DNA from: Metabacillus endolithicus
GTDB taxonomy: Bacteria > Bacillota > Bacilli > Bacillales > Bacillaceae
Direction: 5' to 3'
NCBI RefSeq assembly: GCF_023078335.1
Contig: NZ_CP095550.1
Location: 3,516,001 to 3,580,000, forward strand
Length of the DNA stretch: 64,000 nucleotides
Part shown: positions 5,380-54,769 of the stretch, in pieces
Layout of the letters: every line of letters starts with the position of its first letter
Numbering within the stretch: the stretch's first letter is position 1
Made by a program: the position numbers and the translations under genes
Notes under the pieces: model-generated
What the model was told of the DNA's origin: nothing
Seen by the model: only the letters and a program-made list of their open reading frames with translations
Databases searched by the model: none

Positions 5380-5464
5380 TTTGTGACATTTTTGTGAAAA
5401 AGAAGTATCGCACTTGTCAATAGTCGACATATTTTGATATATTATAGATGTGAAATTAATCACA
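5380..5464 (+). promoter_or_regulatory. roxS promoter with ResD-like repeats and a Rex-type operator
   Basis: A sigma-A-like promoter is visible (TTGTCA at 5414-5419 and TATATT at 5438-5443, 18-base spacer). Upstream are two TTTGTGA direct repeats at 5380-5386 and 5391-5397, eleven bases apart, matching the half-site used by ResD/SrrA. At 5449-5464 the palindrome TGTGAAATTAATCACA covers the likely transcription start. It fits the Rex operator and also the TGTGA-N6-TCACA pattern of Fnr. ResD activation and Rex repression of roxS are known in B. subtilis; the sites here are inferred by pattern. Confidence 0.75.
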
Positions 5465-5573
5465 AACAAACATTTACCCCTTTGTTTGACCGTGAAAAAT
5501 TTCTCCCATCCCCTTTGTTGTCGTTAAGACATAAAAAGAAGACCCTTTACTTTGTATGGGGTCTTTTTATTTT
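5451..5573 (+). ncRNA. roxS: Small regulatory RNA RoxS (RsaE)
   Basis: A ~120-nt transcript unit with no reading frame runs from the promoter start near 5452 to a hairpin and T-run ending at about 5572. It contains the RsaE/RoxS hallmarks in order: a 5' GAAATTAATCACA, a first C-rich loop ACCCCTTTG, then TTTCTCCCATCCCCTTTG as the second C-rich seed, and a GACCC/GGGTC terminator stem. In B. subtilis and Staphylococcus aureus this RNA pairs through its C-rich loops with ribosome sites of central-metabolism mRNAs to adjust NAD/NADH balance. In B. subtilis it also lies in the yjb region. Recognition is from sequence memory of the family and is strong. Confidence 0.88.
5536..5573 (+). terminator. 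Terminator of roxS
   Basis: The stem (AAGACCC with GGGTCTT) has a loop of about 12 bases and is followed by TTTTTATTTT. Confidence 0.85.
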
Positions 5574-7201: not shown

Positions 7202-7595
7202 AATATCCCTCTTTACTGTCTGGTGAATTCACCATATGTTCAGCAGTAAGTTTTAAGCGGTGCAATAGAAAGTCCTTTACTTCCCCCTCGAGTTGAACTT
7301 CCTTCATTGCTTTCTCCATACAAGCAATCCATGCTTTTGCTCTTGAAGGTGTGATTTCAAAAGGAAGATGTCTTGCTCTGAGCATCGGATGGCCGTGTTC
7401 CTCGGTGTATTCTTGAGGGCCACCTAAGTACTGTGTGAGAAATTGCTTTTGCTTTCGTGCTGTTTCAGTTAAATCATCTGGAAAAATGGGAGACAATAAC
7501 GGATGTTTTTGTACGTTTCCATAAAAGGCATCAACAAGCTGCGAAAGAGTTTCTGCTCCTATCGCCTCATAGGGTGTTAGATTTTGATTCGTCAC
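7185..7595 (-). CDS. yjbI: Group II truncated hemoglobin YjbI
   Basis: A heme-binding 2-over-2 globin of 136 residues. The proximal histidine is seen as His76 in [10 protein letters not shown], and the B-helix YGN and the CD-region PIFPDDL patterns are typical of trHbO proteins. By family knowledge it binds oxygen and may act as a peroxidase or in NO/O2 handling; its pairing with spxH suggests a stress role. Translation starts at a GTG (7595) after AAAGGAGATATC. It is the first gene of the yjbI-spxH pair. Confidence 0.93.
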
Positions 7596-7908
7596 GTTGA
7601 TATCTCCTTTTCAAATTGCTAATGTTATTCTAATAAACGCAAAGTTTGTTATTGGAAAATGAATAGAAGAATATTTATATATCAAAGAATGTCACATCTA
7701 ATAGGATAATATGACTACTTCAGCTTGCGTTATGTAAATTCATTTTAACAAGCACTTCTATATATCTCAAACAAACCGCTCTCATAATAGGATATTTACC
7801 ATTATTGTATGTTATTGGAGTTATTGTATGTGTTTCTTTAATGAGGTGTAGAGCAGTTCTACAAGCAAAAAAAGAGACTCAAAAATAGAGCCTCTTTTAA
7901 GCAGTTAA
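7596..7908. other. Intergenic region with a transglycosylase-gene terminator
   Basis: I see no gene in these 313 bases. At 7867-7899 a hairpin (on the reverse strand AAGAGGCTC and GAGTCTCTT followed by a T-run) should end the cwlQ transcript. The part next to 7595 must hold the yjbI promoter; I cannot pick a clear -35/-10 pair. Confidence 0.6.
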
Positions 7909-17953: not shown

Positions 17954-17983
17954 AGAAATAAGTAAATACGAGAGAAACAACCG

Positions 17984-18130
17984 CTAGGGGAGCCTTATAT
18001 AGAGGCTGAGATTAAAGTGTGACTTTAAGACCCTTATAACCTGATCTGGATGATACCAGCGTAGGGAAGTGGATACATCATGGTTATTTGTGTATGTAAA
18101 CCACTTTCCTATAGGAAAGTGGTTTTTTGC
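17984..18130 (+). promoter_or_regulatory. TPP riboswitch (THI box) with terminator
   Basis: The aptamer has all conserved THI-box parts in order: CTAGGGGAGCC, GGCTGAGATTAAA, AGACCCTTATAACCTGATCTGG, and TGATACCAGCGTAGGGAAG. A terminator follows at 18099-18128 (AACCACTTTCC / GGAAAGTGGTT plus T-run). The GGAAGTGG at the 3' edge of the aptamer can pair with CCACTTTCC, which gives the antiterminator. High thiamine diphosphate should therefore switch off tenI-thiO-thiS-thiG-thiF-thiD. Confidence 0.95.
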
Positions 18131-26209: not shown

Positions 26210-27080
26210 AGCTGTTAGGTGAGGCTATAAGGAGAATCGAGACAGAATTAGGTGAAGAGAAGAGCTTCTGTCTGGATACAAGGAGAATTGAGACAGGAAA
26301 CAGGTTCAGAGATGAGCGTCTGTCTGGATACAAGGAGAATCGAGACAGGAATGAGTTACATAGAAGAGCGTCTGTCTCGATACAAGGGGAATCGAGACAG
26401 GAATGAGTTACATAGAATGGCTTCTGTCTCGATACAAGGGGAATCGAGATAGAAATGAGGTACATAGAAGAGGGTCTGTCTCGATACAAGGGGAATCGAG
26501 ACAGGAAAGAGTTACATAGAAGAGCGTCTGTCTCGATACAAGGGGAATCGAGACAGGGATGAGTTACATAGAATGGCTTCTGTCTCGATACAAGGAGAAT
26601 CGAGACAGGAAAGAGTTACATAGAAGAGCGTCTGTCTCGATACAAGGGGAATCGAGACAGGAATGAGTTACATAGAATGGCTTCTGTCTCGATACAAGGG
26701 GAATCGAGACAGGAATGAGTTACATAGAATGGCTCTGTCTCGATACAGAGAGAATCGAGACAGGAAAGAGTTACATAGAAGAGCGTCTGTCTCGATACAA
26801 GGGGAATCGAGACAGGAATGAGGTACATAGAATGGCTTCTGTCTCGATACAAGGGGAATCGAGACAGGAAAGAGTTACATAGAAGAGCATCTGTCTCGAT
26901 ACAAGGGGAACCGAGACAGGAAAGAGTTACATAGAAGAGCGTCTGTCCCGATACAAGGAGAATCGAGACAGGAATGAGTTACATAGAAGAGCGTCTGTCT
27001 CGATACAATGAGAACCGAGACAGAAAACAGCTAAAGAGAAGAGCGTCTGTCCCAATACAAAATAAATCACGACAAGAATC
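26210..27080. repeat. Tandem array of 52-bp units each carrying a 10-bp inverted repeat
   Basis: Fifteen to sixteen head-to-tail units start (at CTGTCT) at 26268, 26320, 26372, 26424, 26476, 26528, 26580, 26632, 26684, 26735, 26787, 26839, 26891, 26943, 26995 and 27047. Spacing is 52 bases everywhere except one step of 51. Each unit is CTGTCTCGAT, a 9-base loop (ACAAGGGGA), ATCGAGACAG, then a 23-base linker (AATGAGTTACATAGAAGAGCG type). Two linker subtypes (GAAGAGCG and GAATGGCT) are interspersed. Units at both ends are degenerate. A 52-base period is not a multiple of three, so it is not coding. It lies between the 3' ends of cotO and cotZ. Confidence 0.95.
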
Positions 27081-38606: not shown

Positions 38607-38644
38607 TGTTGTTTAGCGAAAACACAACTATAGAGTGCAAAATA

Positions 38645-38690
38645 ATAGTAAAAATGCTTGGAGACATAATGTTCCAAGCATTTTTACTAT
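38645..38690. terminator. Long perfect hairpin between convergent genes
   Basis: A 17-base perfect inverted repeat (ATAGTAAAAATGCTTGG and CCAAGCATTTTTACTAT) with a 12-base loop. It could end transcription from either side; the T-run is inside the stem rather than after it. Confidence 0.65.
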
Positions 38691-38783
38691 TAAGTACAAA
38701 TTACTGTTCGATTAGTAAGGTTATTTTTAATTTGATACCTTCAAAACCGAACCCAATAAGAATTTCTCTCTCTGTGGGTCTTC

Positions 38784-43796: not shown

Positions 43797-44369
43797 GTGA
43801 AAAAAATATTATTAATTGTAATTGCTGTTTTAGCGTTGGTAGGCTGTTCACAGTCTATCAACCTAGAAGAGCATTTTTCATTAAATGGAACCGTAGAGCC
43901 ACTAGAAGCCGTGAATCAAAACGGTGAAGTTGTAAAGATGTCTGATTATAAAGATAAAGTTTGGATAGCGACGTTTATTTTTACAAACTGTGATACCGTA
44001 TGCTCGCCAATGACTGCTCACATTGCCACACTTCAAGAGCAGTTAAAAGATGAAAAAGCTGAAGCAGAATTCGTTTCCTTCAGCATTGATCCTGAACATG
44101 ATACACCAGAGGTACTAAAAAAGTTTGGAGATCAATTTGGTGCTGATGATGAAACGTGGAATTTCTTAACAGGCTATGATCAAGATGAAATTGAATCTTT
44201 TTCTAATATAAGTTTCTTAGCTCCTGCTGCGAAACTTGAAGGCTCTACTCAGTTTGTGCACAGTACCTCGATCTTTCTTATGAAAGGTAGTCAAATCCTT
44301 GAGCAATACGATGGAGTATCAGATGTGCCATTTGAAAAAATAATCGAAGATATCAAACTATTGCAATAA
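43797..44369 (+). CDS. SCO1/SenC family lipoprotein
   Basis: A 190-residue membrane-anchored lipoprotein: MKKILLIVIAVLALVGCSQ with lipobox LVGC. The thioredoxin-like domain has the copper/thiol motif TNCDTVCSPM (CxxxC) and the distal histidine in QFVHSTS. SCO proteins deliver copper to cytochrome oxidase CuA or act as thiol-disulfide reductases. It starts (GTG) nine bases after the ssuA stop, so it is probably co-transcribed with the importer, an unusual pairing. Confidence 0.88.
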   Translation: MKKILLIVIAVLALVGCSQSINLEEHFSLNGTVEPLEAVNQNGEVVKMSDYKDKVWIATFIFTNCDTVCSPMTAHIATLQEQLKDEKAEAEFVSFSIDPEHDTPEVLKKFGDQFGADDETWNFLTGYDQDEIESFSNISFLAPAAKLEGSTQFVHSTSIFLMKGSQILEQYDGVSDVPFEKIIEDIKLLQ

Positions 44370-44440
44370 TTCTATTGCATTCTCCACTTGAATAAGTTAC
44401 AGTAGTAAAAAGTTAAACATTTTAAAAATTTCATATATTT

Positions 44441-44866
44441 CTTATCAAGAGAGGCAGAGGGACTGGCCCTATGAAGCCTCAGCAACCGGTTCATAACGAG
44501 TGAAGATCTGGTGGTTATGATATTTGCTAAGTTTCAAGCGAAACCTATGTAAGGTTTTTAAAAGCACCGACAGATAATGAAAAAAGAAGCGAACAAAGCG
44601 TTTTTGATTGTTCGAAGCTTTTTTCATTGTCTGTCGCAGGCTTGCATCGCAAGCCGCAAGCACTTGTGTGCTTTTAAAAACTAAACCAACACAAATTAAT
44701 GGTTTCTTTAACAAAAAGCAAATAAAGTAACAACACAAATACCAAGACTTCTACGAGTGCCAAGGTGCTAAATCCAGCAAGCCACACCAGCTTTATGCTT
44801 GAGAGATAAGAAGAAGCGCATTTAACGACACAGTCTTCTTCTTAACGAGGAAGACTTTTTATTTTG
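44441..44866 (+). promoter_or_regulatory. SAM-I riboswitch (S box) with a large P3 insertion
   Basis: The 5' half (CTTATCAAGAGAGGCAGAGG, GACTGGCCCTATGAAGCCTC, AGCAACC) ends near 44487. The 3' half (CCAAGGTGCTAAATCCAGC, then CTTGAGAGATAAG closing P1) starts near 44760. All S-box core parts are present, but the P3 arm, normally ~15-25 bases, is ~270 bases long. The terminator is at 44833-44865 (GTCTTCTTC / GAGGAAGAC plus T-run), and AAGAAGAAG at 44808-44816 can pair with CTTCTTCTT as antiterminator. It should shut off metI-metC when S-adenosylmethionine is high. Confidence 0.93.
44496..44759. mobile_element. MITE-like palindromic element inserted in the riboswitch P3 loop
   Basis: The direct repeat ACGAGTG occurs at 44496-44502 and 44753-44759 and would be a 7-bp target duplication. 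Removing one copy and the ~250 bases between leaves a short normal-looking P3 loop. The inside is one long imperfect palindrome: near the ends GGTGGTTATGATATTTGCT pairs with AGCAAATAAAGTAACAAC; deeper, GTTTTTAAAAGCAC pairs perfectly with GTGCTTTTAAAAAC; at the centre CGACAGATAATGAAAAA pairs with TTTTTCATTGTCTGTCG. There is no reading frame. The element therefore looks non-autonomous and could fold as an extended P3 arm. Confidence 0.72.
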
Positions 44867-44933
44867 CTTTTTTAACATGTACGCTTTCTCTCATGTACAT
44901 ACTTGTTAAATTTAAATCTTAGGAGTGACAAAC

Positions 44934-46058
44934 ATGAGCAAACGAATCGAAACAAAATTAGCACAAATCGGAAACCGCAGTGAAAATGTAACAGGTACAG
45001 TTAACCCGCCAATTTATTTATCAACAGCCTATCGTCACGCAGGAATCGGTGAATCTACTGGATTTGATTATATCCGTACAGGAAACCCTACAAGACTATT
45101 AGTCGAAAAAGCAATCGCAGACCTCGAGCATGGCGACCGTGGCTTTGCCTTCAGTTCAGGAATGGCTGCTATTCAAACAATCATGGCTCTCTTCCAAAGC
45201 GGAGACGAACTGATCGTTTCTTCTGACTTATACGGTGGAACATACCGCCTCTTTGAAAGAGAATGGAGAAAATACGGATTATCATTTCAATATGATGATT
45301 TCACTAATCCAGCTGAAACGGATAAGTTGATCAATGAAAACACAAAAGCGCTATTCATTGAAACGCCAACTAATCCATTAATGCAGGAAACGGACATTAA
45401 AGAGCTAGTAGCAGTTGCGAAAAAGCATAACATACTCGTGATTGTTGATAACACTTTCTATACACCAGTTCTTCAAACGCCAATCTTAGATGGAGCTGAT
45501 ATTGTCATTCATAGTGCAACGAAATACTTAGGTGGGCACAACGATGTTCTTGCAGGCTTAGTTGTAACCAAAGGTCAGGAACTAAGCGATGAATTCTTCC
45601 AACATCAAAACGCTATTGGTGCAGTTTTATCACCATTTGATTCTTGGTTATTAATGAGAGGAATGAAAACTTTATCACTTCGTATGAGACAGCATCAAGA
45701 AAATGCTCAAAAAGTAGCAGCATTTTTAGAAGAACATGAGGATGTACTTGATGTTCTATATCCTGGTAAAGGTGGAATGCTATCATTCCGTTTACAAGAT
45801 GAGGCATGGATTAACCCATTTTTGAAAAACCTTAACACGATTTGCTTTGCAGAAAGTTTAGGTGGAATCGAAAGCTTCATTACGTATCCAGCTACGCAAA
45901 CACATATGGATATTCCTGAAGAAATTCGGATCGCAAATGGTGTCTGTAACAAGCTTCTGCGTTTTTCAGTAGGTGTTGAGCATGCAGAAGATATTATTGA
46001 AGATCTAGCACAAGCATTTAAAGAGATGAAAGGAGTGGAAGCAGTTGAGCAATCATGA
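44934..46058 (+). CDS. metI: Cystathionine gamma-synthase / O-acetylhomoserine thiolyase MetI
   Basis: PLP enzyme of methionine synthesis that makes cystathionine from an acylated homoserine and cysteine. Cofactor lysine in HSATKYLGGHNDVLAG; other motifs are FDYIRTGNPTR and AFSSGMAAIQ. Length is 374 residues, as in B. subtilis YjcI. AGGAGTGACAAAC precedes the ATG at 44934. It overlaps metC by 14 bases and is controlled by the SAM riboswitch. Confidence 0.94.
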   Translation: MSKRIETKLAQIGNRSENVTGTVNPPIYLSTAYRHAGIGESTGFDYIRTGNPTRLLVEKAIADLEHGDRGFAFSSGMAAIQTIMALFQSGDELIVSSDLYGGTYRLFEREWRKYGLSFQYDDFTNPAETDKLINENTKALFIETPTNPLMQETDIKELVAVAKKHNILVIVDNTFYTPVLQTPILDGADIVIHSATKYLGGHNDVLAGLVVTKGQELSDEFFQHQNAIGAVLSPFDSWLLMRGMKTLSLRMRQHQENAQKVAAFLEEHEDVLDVLYPGKGGMLSFRLQDEAWINPFLKNLNTICFAESLGGIESFITYPATQTHMDIPEEIRIANGVCNKLLRFSVGVEHAEDIIEDLAQAFKEMKGVEAVEQS

Positions 46059-47229
46059 TTGGTCATTTCAAACAAAACTACTTCATAACGAGTCAAAGGT
46101 AGACCGCGGCACAGGATCGGTAAGTGTGCCGATTCATCATTCCTCTACTTTTCATCAATTTGATATTGATGAATTTGGTAAATATGATTATGCACGCTCT
46201 GGGAATCCTACGCGAGAAGCGTTGGAGAGTGCCATTGCAGAATTAGAAGGTGGATCACGTGGATTGGCGTTCTCTTCTGGTATGGCAGCTATTTCTACCG
46301 CGTTTTTATTGTTATCACAAGGAGATCATGTACTTGTAACTGAGGACGTGTATGGTGGGACTTTCCGTATTATTACAGATGTTTTAACTCGATTTGGAAT
46401 TGAGCATACATTTGTAGACATGACAGATCTTCATCAAGTTGCGTCTGAGATTCGTCCGAATACGAAGGTGATTTATATGGAAACACCTTCAAATCCGTTG
46501 TTAAAGGTAACGGATATTAAGGGGATTGTGAATCTGGCGAAGGCAAATAACTGCTTAACTTTCTTAGATAATACGTTTTTAACACCTGAGTTACAGCGAC
46601 CTTTGGAGTTAGGCGTGGATGTGGTATTGCACAGTGCAACGAAGTTTTTAGCGGGGCATAGTGATGTGCTTGCAGGTCTTGCTGTTGTTAAGGATGCTGA
46701 ATTAGGAGATCGCCTGTATAAATTACAAAATGCATTCGGTGCCGTTCTTGGTGTGCAGGACGCATGGTTAGTTCTTCGTGGATTAAAGACGTTGCATGTA
46801 CGTTTGCAGCAGTCTCAAACATCTGCTTTGAAAATAGCTGAATTTTTAGCGGAGCATCCGAAGGTAGAAGAGGTGTATTATCCGGGCTTGAGCTATCACC
46901 CAGGTCATGAAACACAAAACTATCAAGCAGATGGACCCGGGGCAGTGTTGTCTTTCAAGTTAGCTGACGCAGCTGCGGTTAAAACATTGGTAGAAAATGT
47001 GGAACTTCCGGTGTTTGCGGTTAGTTTAGGTGCAGTGGAATCAATTCTCTCATATCCTGCGAAAATGTCACATGCGGCAATGCCTCCAGAAGAGCGTGAA
47101 AAGCGTGGCATATCAGATGGATTGCTGAGATTAAGTGTTGGACTTGAGAAGGTAGAGGATTTAATTAAAGATTTTGCTGCAGCTTTGGAGAAGGTGCCTG
47201 CTGCTGCAAAGAAGAATGTGAATGTGTAA
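46045..47229 (+). CDS. metC: Cystathionine beta-lyase MetC
   Basis: PLP enzyme that splits cystathionine to homocysteine, pyruvate and ammonia. Cofactor lysine in HSATKFLAGHSDVLAG, with YDYARSGNPTREALE and AFSSGMAAIST. Length 394 residues. The start is a TTG at 46045 (LSNHDWSFQTKLLHN) within the end of metI, after GGAGTGGAAGCAG. Its paralogy with MetI is obvious; the order metI-metC follows B. subtilis yjcI-yjcJ. Confidence 0.94.
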   Translation: MSNHDWSFQTKLLHNESKVDRGTGSVSVPIHHSSTFHQFDIDEFGKYDYARSGNPTREALESAIAELEGGSRGLAFSSGMAAISTAFLLLSQGDHVLVTEDVYGGTFRIITDVLTRFGIEHTFVDMTDLHQVASEIRPNTKVIYMETPSNPLLKVTDIKGIVNLAKANNCLTFLDNTFLTPELQRPLELGVDVVLHSATKFLAGHSDVLAGLAVVKDAELGDRLYKLQNAFGAVLGVQDAWLVLRGLKTLHVRLQQSQTSALKIAEFLAEHPKVEEVYYPGLSYHPGHETQNYQADGPGAVLSFKLADAAAVKTLVENVELPVFAVSLGAVESILSYPAKMSHAAMPPEEREKRGISDGLLRLSVGLEKVEDLIKDFAAALEKVPAAAKKNVNV

Positions 47230-54515: not shown

Positions 54516-54529
54516 AAGTGAATAATTAA

Positions 54530-54769
54530 TAAGTGATGAGAGGAAATTGAGTAGTAGTTATCTCCCTGTTTGCAGAGAGTCGATGGCAGGTGTGAATCGA
54601 CACATAGATAATACGAATTACACTCCTTGAGCTTTTCTTTGTTCGGTAGCAGCAAAGAACGGACGAACCGTTAATCGTTGAGTGGAAGAATACTATTTAT
54701 TCTTCAATAAGGGTGGTACCGCGTGAAAAAGTCAACCACGTCCCTTTTATAGGGGATGTGGTTTTTTGT
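54530..54769 (+). promoter_or_regulatory. T-box leader of tyrZ
   Basis: The T-box sequence AGGGTGGTACCGCG lies at 54710-54723. Upstream is a specifier stem region containing a TAC (Tyr) codon at 54619-54621 in GAATTACACTCC. The terminator is at 54733-54767 (AACCACGTCCCT / AGGGGATGTGGTT plus T-run). Uncharged tRNA-Tyr should bind and allow transcription of tyrZ. Confidence 0.92.

Follow-up and report, generated by a model that had tools for sequence, protein, structure and literature searches.

We analysed a window of 64,000 nucleotides of the Metabacillus endolithicus genome, in which a SAM-I (S-box) riboswitch leader occupies positions 44439-44812 of the forward strand, upstream of a gene of the MetI type. 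The controlled gene (44934-46058, +) encodes a methionine biosynthesis PLP-dependent protein (NCBIfam NF006095, 688.5 bits with the cut-off at 585) and is followed by a cystathionine beta-lyase gene (46045-47229, +; NCBIfam NF005976, 715.8 bits against 627). The leader shares the parts of the SAM-I class (RF00162): a conserved aptamer whose 5' and 3' halves can fold into P1 to P4, a terminator with a competing antiterminator, and a methionine gene downstream. The two strands of P1, at 44439-44446 and 44805-44812 (+), pair in the fold with a probability of 0.85-1.0. The conserved 5' half, comprising P2 and the 5' side of P3 (44451-44487, +), ends in GCAACC at 44482-44487 and is recognized by direct reading, by Rfam and in the fold, while sequence and fold place the 3' side of P3, GGTGCTAAATCC and P4 at 44760-44802 (+), with GGTGCTAAATCC, the start of the 3' half, at 44764. 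The 5' arm of the antiterminator (44807-44816, +) pairs with 44835-44844 at 10 of 10 positions (inverted repeat I13), and the terminator scan gives an intrinsic terminator at 44832-44864 (+), made of a stem-loop at 44832-44856 and a T-rich tail. In an Rfam scan of the window, the RF00162 match begins at 44439 and reaches 53.9 bits (gathering score 44.4); it ends at 44555, inside the arm described below, into which the S-box 3' half is misplaced. Elsewhere in the window, an RsaE/RoxS sRNA (5450-5568), a TPP riboswitch (17976-18084) and a T-box leader (54527-54748) were also found at the Rfam gathering score.

The window leader differs from a typical SAM-I riboswitch in the 276 nt that separate GCAACC from GGTGCTAAATCC and form a giant P3 arm. 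A preliminary description of this DNA, made from the letters alone, had pointed out that the S-box halves lie far apart and had read the intervening DNA as a MITE-like insertion. The distance itself is real; 13 other S-box leaders of the genus have gaps of 13-62 nt (13 measured of 17 fetched, from four genomes; one region, L067, also reads 364 nt across a second aptamer half, and the nearer pair was counted). The arm has three parts. Its foot carries the 7-bp direct repeat ACGAGTG that had been reported to flank the insert, at 44496-44502 and 44753-44759 (+), each copy supplying one half of a tandem G.A motif by sequence and pair probabilities. The stalk follows, with its 5' strand at 44503-44553 (+), recognized by a divergence close to that of four-fold sites and a retained match to the 3' strand, and its 3' strand at 44682-44752 (+), supported by identity and strand-swap comparisons. 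The distal crown (44554-44681, +), delimited by model R1, covariation and constraint, consists of a closing stem (44554-44567/44668-44681) and three hairpins. These are a long hairpin at 44568-44636 (+; inverted repeat I1, 29-nt arms, 86 % complementary), a GC-rich hairpin GGCTTGC-ATC-GCAAGCC at 44639-44655 (+; folds and crown alignment), and a third hairpin at 44656-44668 (+; crown alignment), which is short in the window and reads GCAAGC-GNNA-GCTTGC in many relatives.

The arm folds strongly on itself. Positions 44485-44766 reach -95 kcal/mol, whereas 200 shuffles average -56.9 (sd 4.0; z -9.6) and none of them does as well. The insert had been described as one long palindrome without coding capacity. 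The second part of that statement stands, as the + strand holds no ORF of at least 60 aa and a TTG frame of 89 aa on the - strand is purely mechanical. The first part has to be revised: the architecture is a helical stalk leading to a four-way junction with one 29-nt-arm hairpin and two short hairpins. The inverted-repeat scan shows imperfect symmetry only. Two further repeat structures occur in the window: an array at 26229-27060 in which a 52-bp unit is repeated 16 times in tandem, whose consensus holds the inverted repeat ATCGAGACAG ... CTGTCTCGAT and which is overlapped only by short mechanical ORFs, and a long palindrome around AGTAAAAATGCTTGGA ... TCCAAGCATTTTTACT at 38643-38692.

The suggestion that the insert would fold back, lengthen P3 and leave the ligand core able to fold held up. 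Nine of ten tested foot pairs have probabilities of 0.74-0.90 and one of 0.45, and the unconstrained minimum-free-energy structure of the window leader contains P1, P2, P3 and P4 with the arm present, so that the core fold of this leader survives the arm. The window leader thus resembles the known riboswitch variable insertions, being a self-folding insertion in a peripheral loop with an intact core. Among the 13 usable whole leaders folded without constraint, six formed a complete core when judged by eye; the remaining ones, including the yitJ leader of the same genome, favoured a different fold in this calculation without SAM. A premature terminator inside the insert, also proposed earlier, was not supported: the consensus scan gives no terminator-like site in the arm, and within 44360-44940 it detects only the ordinary terminator of the S box (44832-44856). 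A permissive Rfam scan of 44380-44930 for a known aptamer class nested in the arm returned only SAM above its gathering score.

Conservation of the long arm across the genus had been set in the preliminary description as the test that would speak against a MITE, and the arm is found at the same position in most of the genus. A whole-leader search of 60 relatives gave full-length matches at 78-87 % in 13 other genomes of the genus. Across 21 Metabacillus genomes, P3 gaps span 21 to 366 nt, and arms of at least 176 nt are present in 17/20 metI, 14/21 yitJ and 10/20 metK leaders measured. The metI leader of G017 was not found, and the metK leader of G009 lies outside the count of 20 because it did not fit the search expression; its Rfam match of 162 nt points to a short arm. 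The longest arm, with a gap of 366 nt, belongs to the yitJ leader of G006 (L038, 479-852), in whose fold two further hairpins are inserted inside the crown. In the yitJ leaders of G008 and G012 (L035 and L039), a single strong hairpin on a similar stalk replaces the crown in the fold. Loss or trimming of the arm has happened repeatedly, for instance in metK of G008 and G010 and in yitJ of G013, which indicates that no single leader strictly requires it.

Scanning a single genome for each species with a pattern fitted to metI/yitJ-type leaders with gaps of 232-292 nt, and not to metK-type leaders, returned 16 stretches: 14 from Metabacillus or 'Bacillus sp.', one from Megasphaera and one from Cytobacillus sp. 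S13-E01. The Megasphaera match was discarded as two tandem aptamers instead of a long P3. A stringent pattern of the metI/yitJ type, applied to 397 genomes of the order, revealed no genuine arm with a gap of 110-230 nt; two matches with gaps of 170-230 nt were rejected as tandem aptamers, since the matched stretches already hold a nearer GGTGC. In a tree from metI and yitJ coding sequences, G009, whose gaps are short (21 nt in metI, 43 nt in yitJ), branches first in the genus, followed by three clades whose mutual order is weakly supported. Crowns occur in three of these clades in metI, in two in yitJ and in two in metK, a distribution that points to three crowned leaders early in the genus and repeated loss thereafter. 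Judged from these sequences, crowned metI, yitJ and metK leaders are probably ancestral in Metabacillus. The crown tree separates the yitJ crowns from the metI crowns with a support of 100. Within metI, some crown alleles conflict with the species tree, the allele of G000 falling with G003/G005 instead of G002/G015, which suggests that arms have sometimes been exchanged.

We built two covariance models, R1 from the metI and yitJ crowns only and R2 from the metK crowns only. The window crown, at 44554-44681, scores 127.4 bits with R1, to whose training set it belonged. Each model recognizes crowns of the other set: R1 scores seven metK crowns at 44-71 bits, and R2 picks up the crowns of 8 yitJ and 3 metI leaders (33-69 bits), with many metI crowns missed, including that of the window. 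In filtered whole-genome searches of the 21 genomes (150 candidates scored per genome; 41 in a family-wide R1 search), SAM leaders account for every R1 match at E < 0.1 and every R2 match at E < 0.05, and the best matches outside them, among the candidates scored, reach E 0.13 for R1 and 0.067 for R2. The metK crown of G003 was not returned by the R1 whole-genome search and gave 59.3 bits in separate scoring. Among the candidates scored in 80 genomes of the family, R1 gave one borderline match outside the genus (G022, E 0.09), which has no S-box halves and was taken as chance. The crown is confined to SAM leaders as far as these searches reach. The metI leader of Cytobacillus sp. S13-E01 (L097, about 7553-7869, -) has a diverged crown that the crown models score at 39.0 and 40.6 bits over their full length with filters off, against an unfiltered background of up to 19.2 bits in 44.4 kb of the window. 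The resemblance may stem from descent, transfer or convergence. Its arm has ACGAG at both feet, P3 of this leader bears a further long hairpin on its 3' side, and its MetI protein does not group with Metabacillus; no such leader was seen in three genus mates, in which metI was not located. With default filters this arm gave no crown match, so diverged crowns, whether in SAM leaders or elsewhere, may have escaped the filtered searches of other genomes.

The ACGAGTG repeat could be taken as a target-site duplication, a reading that its distribution does not support. Among the 41 metI and yitJ leaders, the exact repeat stands at both ends of the arm in 10 (9/20 metI, 1/21 yitJ), and CGAG at both ends in 26 (15/20 metI, 11/21 yitJ). 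Such wider retention of CGAG is expected of an RNA motif and not of a duplication scar. In the window leader, A44496-U44758, C44497-G44757, G44500-C44754 and U44501-A44753 pair at 0.79-0.85 around GA/GA, so that ACGAGU set against ACGAGU gives two pairs on either side of tandem G.A mismatches. Tandem G.A in a CGAG context is a stable motif. A symmetric tandem G.A motif in the foot of the arm describes the repeat better than a target-site duplication does. The yitJ arms of G007 and G017 have a crown (39.0 and 38.0 bits) and no ACGAGTG, and the repeat is also missing from G009, the shortest metI arm.

The crown and the stalk evolve differently. Over 44 distant metI pairs with a mean four-fold identity of 0.403, crown segments retain identities of 0.73-0.90 and the foot 0.93/0.85, compared with 0.42 and 0.465 for the stalk; over 26 yitJ pairs (four-fold identity 0.377), the crown retains 0.67-0.92 and the stalk 0.52/0.46, where segment identities, unlike the four-fold values, count gaps as differences. 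At the nine closest metI pairs (four-fold 0.835), crown segments at 0.72-0.93 are not clearly above four-fold sites, for which exchanged alleles are a likely cause. In metK the excess is modest: 14 of 21 pairs have crown identities of 0.65-0.81 against four-fold values of 0.62-0.67, and four of seven closer pairs fall below four-fold identity, in a comparison that counts gaps and covers no more than 276 nt of the gene. The crown is conserved beyond four-fold sites, and it does not fit the description of a nonconserved riboswitch insertion, which the stalk does fit. The stalk strands diverge about as four-fold sites do and nevertheless keep their pairing by changing in match. Stalk strands from one leader pair better with each other than with those of another leader in 147/156 metI and 50/56 yitJ comparisons, as do the strands of the long crown hairpin in 153/156, although these comparisons are not independent; the metI stalk of G006 pairs worse than most foreign combinations.

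Covariation supports the crown structure. In alignment A4, which holds 19 crowns (11 metI, 8 yitJ), 98.5 % of 926 cells are paired, a percentage raised by leaving out rows with internal deletions (metI G019, G006 and G004; yitJ G020), and 15 of 50 pairs changed on both sides. None of 500 shuffles reached the values for pairing or two-sided change, counts that are optimistic given the relatedness of the sequences, and slid controls were 43-49 % paired. In the lower helix of the long crown hairpin, two-sided changes among relatives were seen in 10 of 18 pairs. The alignments of whole arms cover 14 of the 17 long metI arms (A2, in which MAFFT misaligned the P3 foot of rows G016 and G010) and 9 of the 14 long yitJ arms (A3). 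In the metI and yitJ crowns, G-U occurs in 14 cells of 11 columns and A-C in 3 cells of 2 columns; in the metK crowns the cells number 27 and 7. This excess of G-U over A-C favours selection on a + strand RNA over an effect at the DNA level. Crown loops vary more than crown stems in A4, which is unlike a typical ligand pocket.

Taken together, these results bear on how the arm arose and why it persists. Bacterial MITEs and REP-like palindromes are short, non-coding and palindromic, and the arm is likewise a short, palindromic element without coding capacity; it differs from them in occurring once per leader, in being found only in SAM leaders, and in its genus-wide inheritance. A recent MITE insertion in the M. 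endolithicus genome, as the preliminary description had it, would account for the ACGAGTG direct repeat and the inverted symmetry, yet most of the genus carries the orthologous arm, the repeat is explained by the G.A motif, and a search for other copies of the insert in its own genome found only itself and the arm of the yitJ SAM leader (E 0.001). Neither that search nor the crown models at E < 0.05 yielded the multiple dispersed copies that mark a MITE, and we regard a recent insertion as hardly credible. The sequence GCAAGC-N4-GCTTGC, considered as a REP-like element, has only two sites in the 5.3-Mb genome, both in SAM arms, and this reading was dropped. The insert gave no match in plasmids or phages, in databases that may leave out near records, and its exact tip pattern gave 0 matches in viral contigs; an origin from phage or plasmid was rejected for want of a match there. 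Improbable, but less so than a recent MITE, is an old mobile or recombining element that entered the P3 loop before the radiation, was copied between SAM leaders through the shared aptamer halves and is now kept. Nested palindromes, the exchange of metI crown alleles between species and the diverged crown in one Cytobacillus metI leader, without a counterpart seen in three congeners where we could not locate metI, would fit such a history, whereas the lack of anything outside SAM leaders at E < 0.05 (21 genomes, among the candidates scored), the lack of matches in plasmids or phages, and a direct repeat that is not conserved as such argue against it. This alternative bears on the origin of the arm, not on its present role.

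A more serious contender, though still unlikely in our judgement, is that the arm is a tolerated variable insertion without a function of its own, whose pairing persists only because 276 unpaired nucleotides in the loop would spoil the aptamer, and which grows or shrinks by slippage. Long self-folding variable insertions are indeed a known riboswitch trait (PMC2258182), and P3 arms of up to 172 nt are described for fungal TPP riboswitches (PMC11683625). The range of gaps from 21 to 366 nt and a stalk that diverges like four-fold sites and stays paired agree with this explanation, which leaves unexplained the crown identity in distant pairs (0.73-0.90 versus 0.40) and the related crowns in three leaders, with none found elsewhere. 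Matched strands could also arise at the DNA level, as hairpin-templated (quasipalindrome) correction gives matched changes in long inverted repeats and would do so without selection on the RNA. Against such correction stand the preference for G-U over A-C (11 columns to 2), which has a strand-specific sign, the conservation of the closing stem and hairpins, and the confinement of the crown to SAM leaders, and we consider it very improbable here.

Rather than a mobile element, the insert is thus very probably a structural arm that has been conserved. In the explanation that we favour, the P3 helix of the S-box leader carries an inherited giant arm in which a tandem G.A foot, a stalk and a four-way crown follow one another. 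Self-pairing of the stalk would bring the two aptamer halves together, which is the simplest reading of a pairing that is kept while the sequence drifts, and the arm may project along the P2/P3 stack as a rod. The crown would dock a putative trans factor, for which a protein that binds double strands or junctions and a second regulator are candidates; this factor might tune how stable the met leaders are or how they terminate. A docking site agrees better than a small-molecule pocket with the conserved stems, the variable loops, the long duplex, the four-way junction and the presence in core methionine/SAM leaders. We lean slightly towards this statement as a whole, that is, a selected three-part P3 arm of foot, stalk and crown with the crown as a docking site for a trans factor. 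Taken separately, a docking or second-input site at the crown is a reasonable possibility that we would put somewhat below an even chance. The stronger proposal, that the crown is an undescribed RNA receptor on the P3 helix beside the SAM pocket, recognizing either a protein or a second metabolite, and that the metI, yitJ and metK leaders of Metabacillus and one diverged Cytobacillus leader are nested two-input riboswitches, is rather doubtful.

Peripheral extensions of riboswitches have precedents. Long self-folding insertions at peripheral sites are known, and Barrick and Breaker (2007, PMC2258182) call them nonconserved; the Metabacillus arm shares the peripheral, self-folding site and the intact core, but its distal 128-nt domain is conserved and related domains occur in three leaders. 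In fungal TPP riboswitches, P3 is highly variable and reaches up to 172 nt, and the standard Rfam model truncates matches inside P3 (PMC11683625). The likeness lies in a P3 longer than the rest of the aptamer and in the Rfam truncation there; the class and kingdom differ, as do the gaps of up to 366 nt and the conserved tip in Metabacillus. The thiC TPP riboswitch of Klebsiella also has a peripheral P3 extension, there a 24-nt stem in another class, in which single-nucleotide deletions changed the response to a ligand analogue, whereas moving the extension into the E. coli riboswitch left the response unchanged (PMC12632268). The open-licence literature yielded no report of such arms in SAM-I riboswitches, or of a conserved peripheral insertion common to three leaders.

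The arm also affects annotation. At the Rfam gathering score, SAM is found in 20/20 metI, 16/21 yitJ and 12/21 metK leaders of the genus, and the 14 of 62 leaders that are missed (5/21 yitJ, 9/21 metK) all have gaps of at least 187 nt; among the 48 matches, 23 end inside the arm (16 metI, 7 yitJ). In M. endolithicus itself, the SAM leaders of metK (C1:1418700-1420300) and yitJ (C1:3470700-3472400), both long-armed, have no Rfam match at the gathering score. As a consequence of these misses by the standard model, the met regulon is under-annotated in Metabacillus. The leaders of this one genus, with gaps from 21 to 366 nt and with or without a crown, form a natural allelic series for relating the size of P3 to SAM binding and co-transcriptional folding. 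More broadly, our findings suggest that a riboswitch can carry, within its aptamer, a conserved peripheral domain bigger than the aptamer itself, and can do so in several leaders of one regulon.
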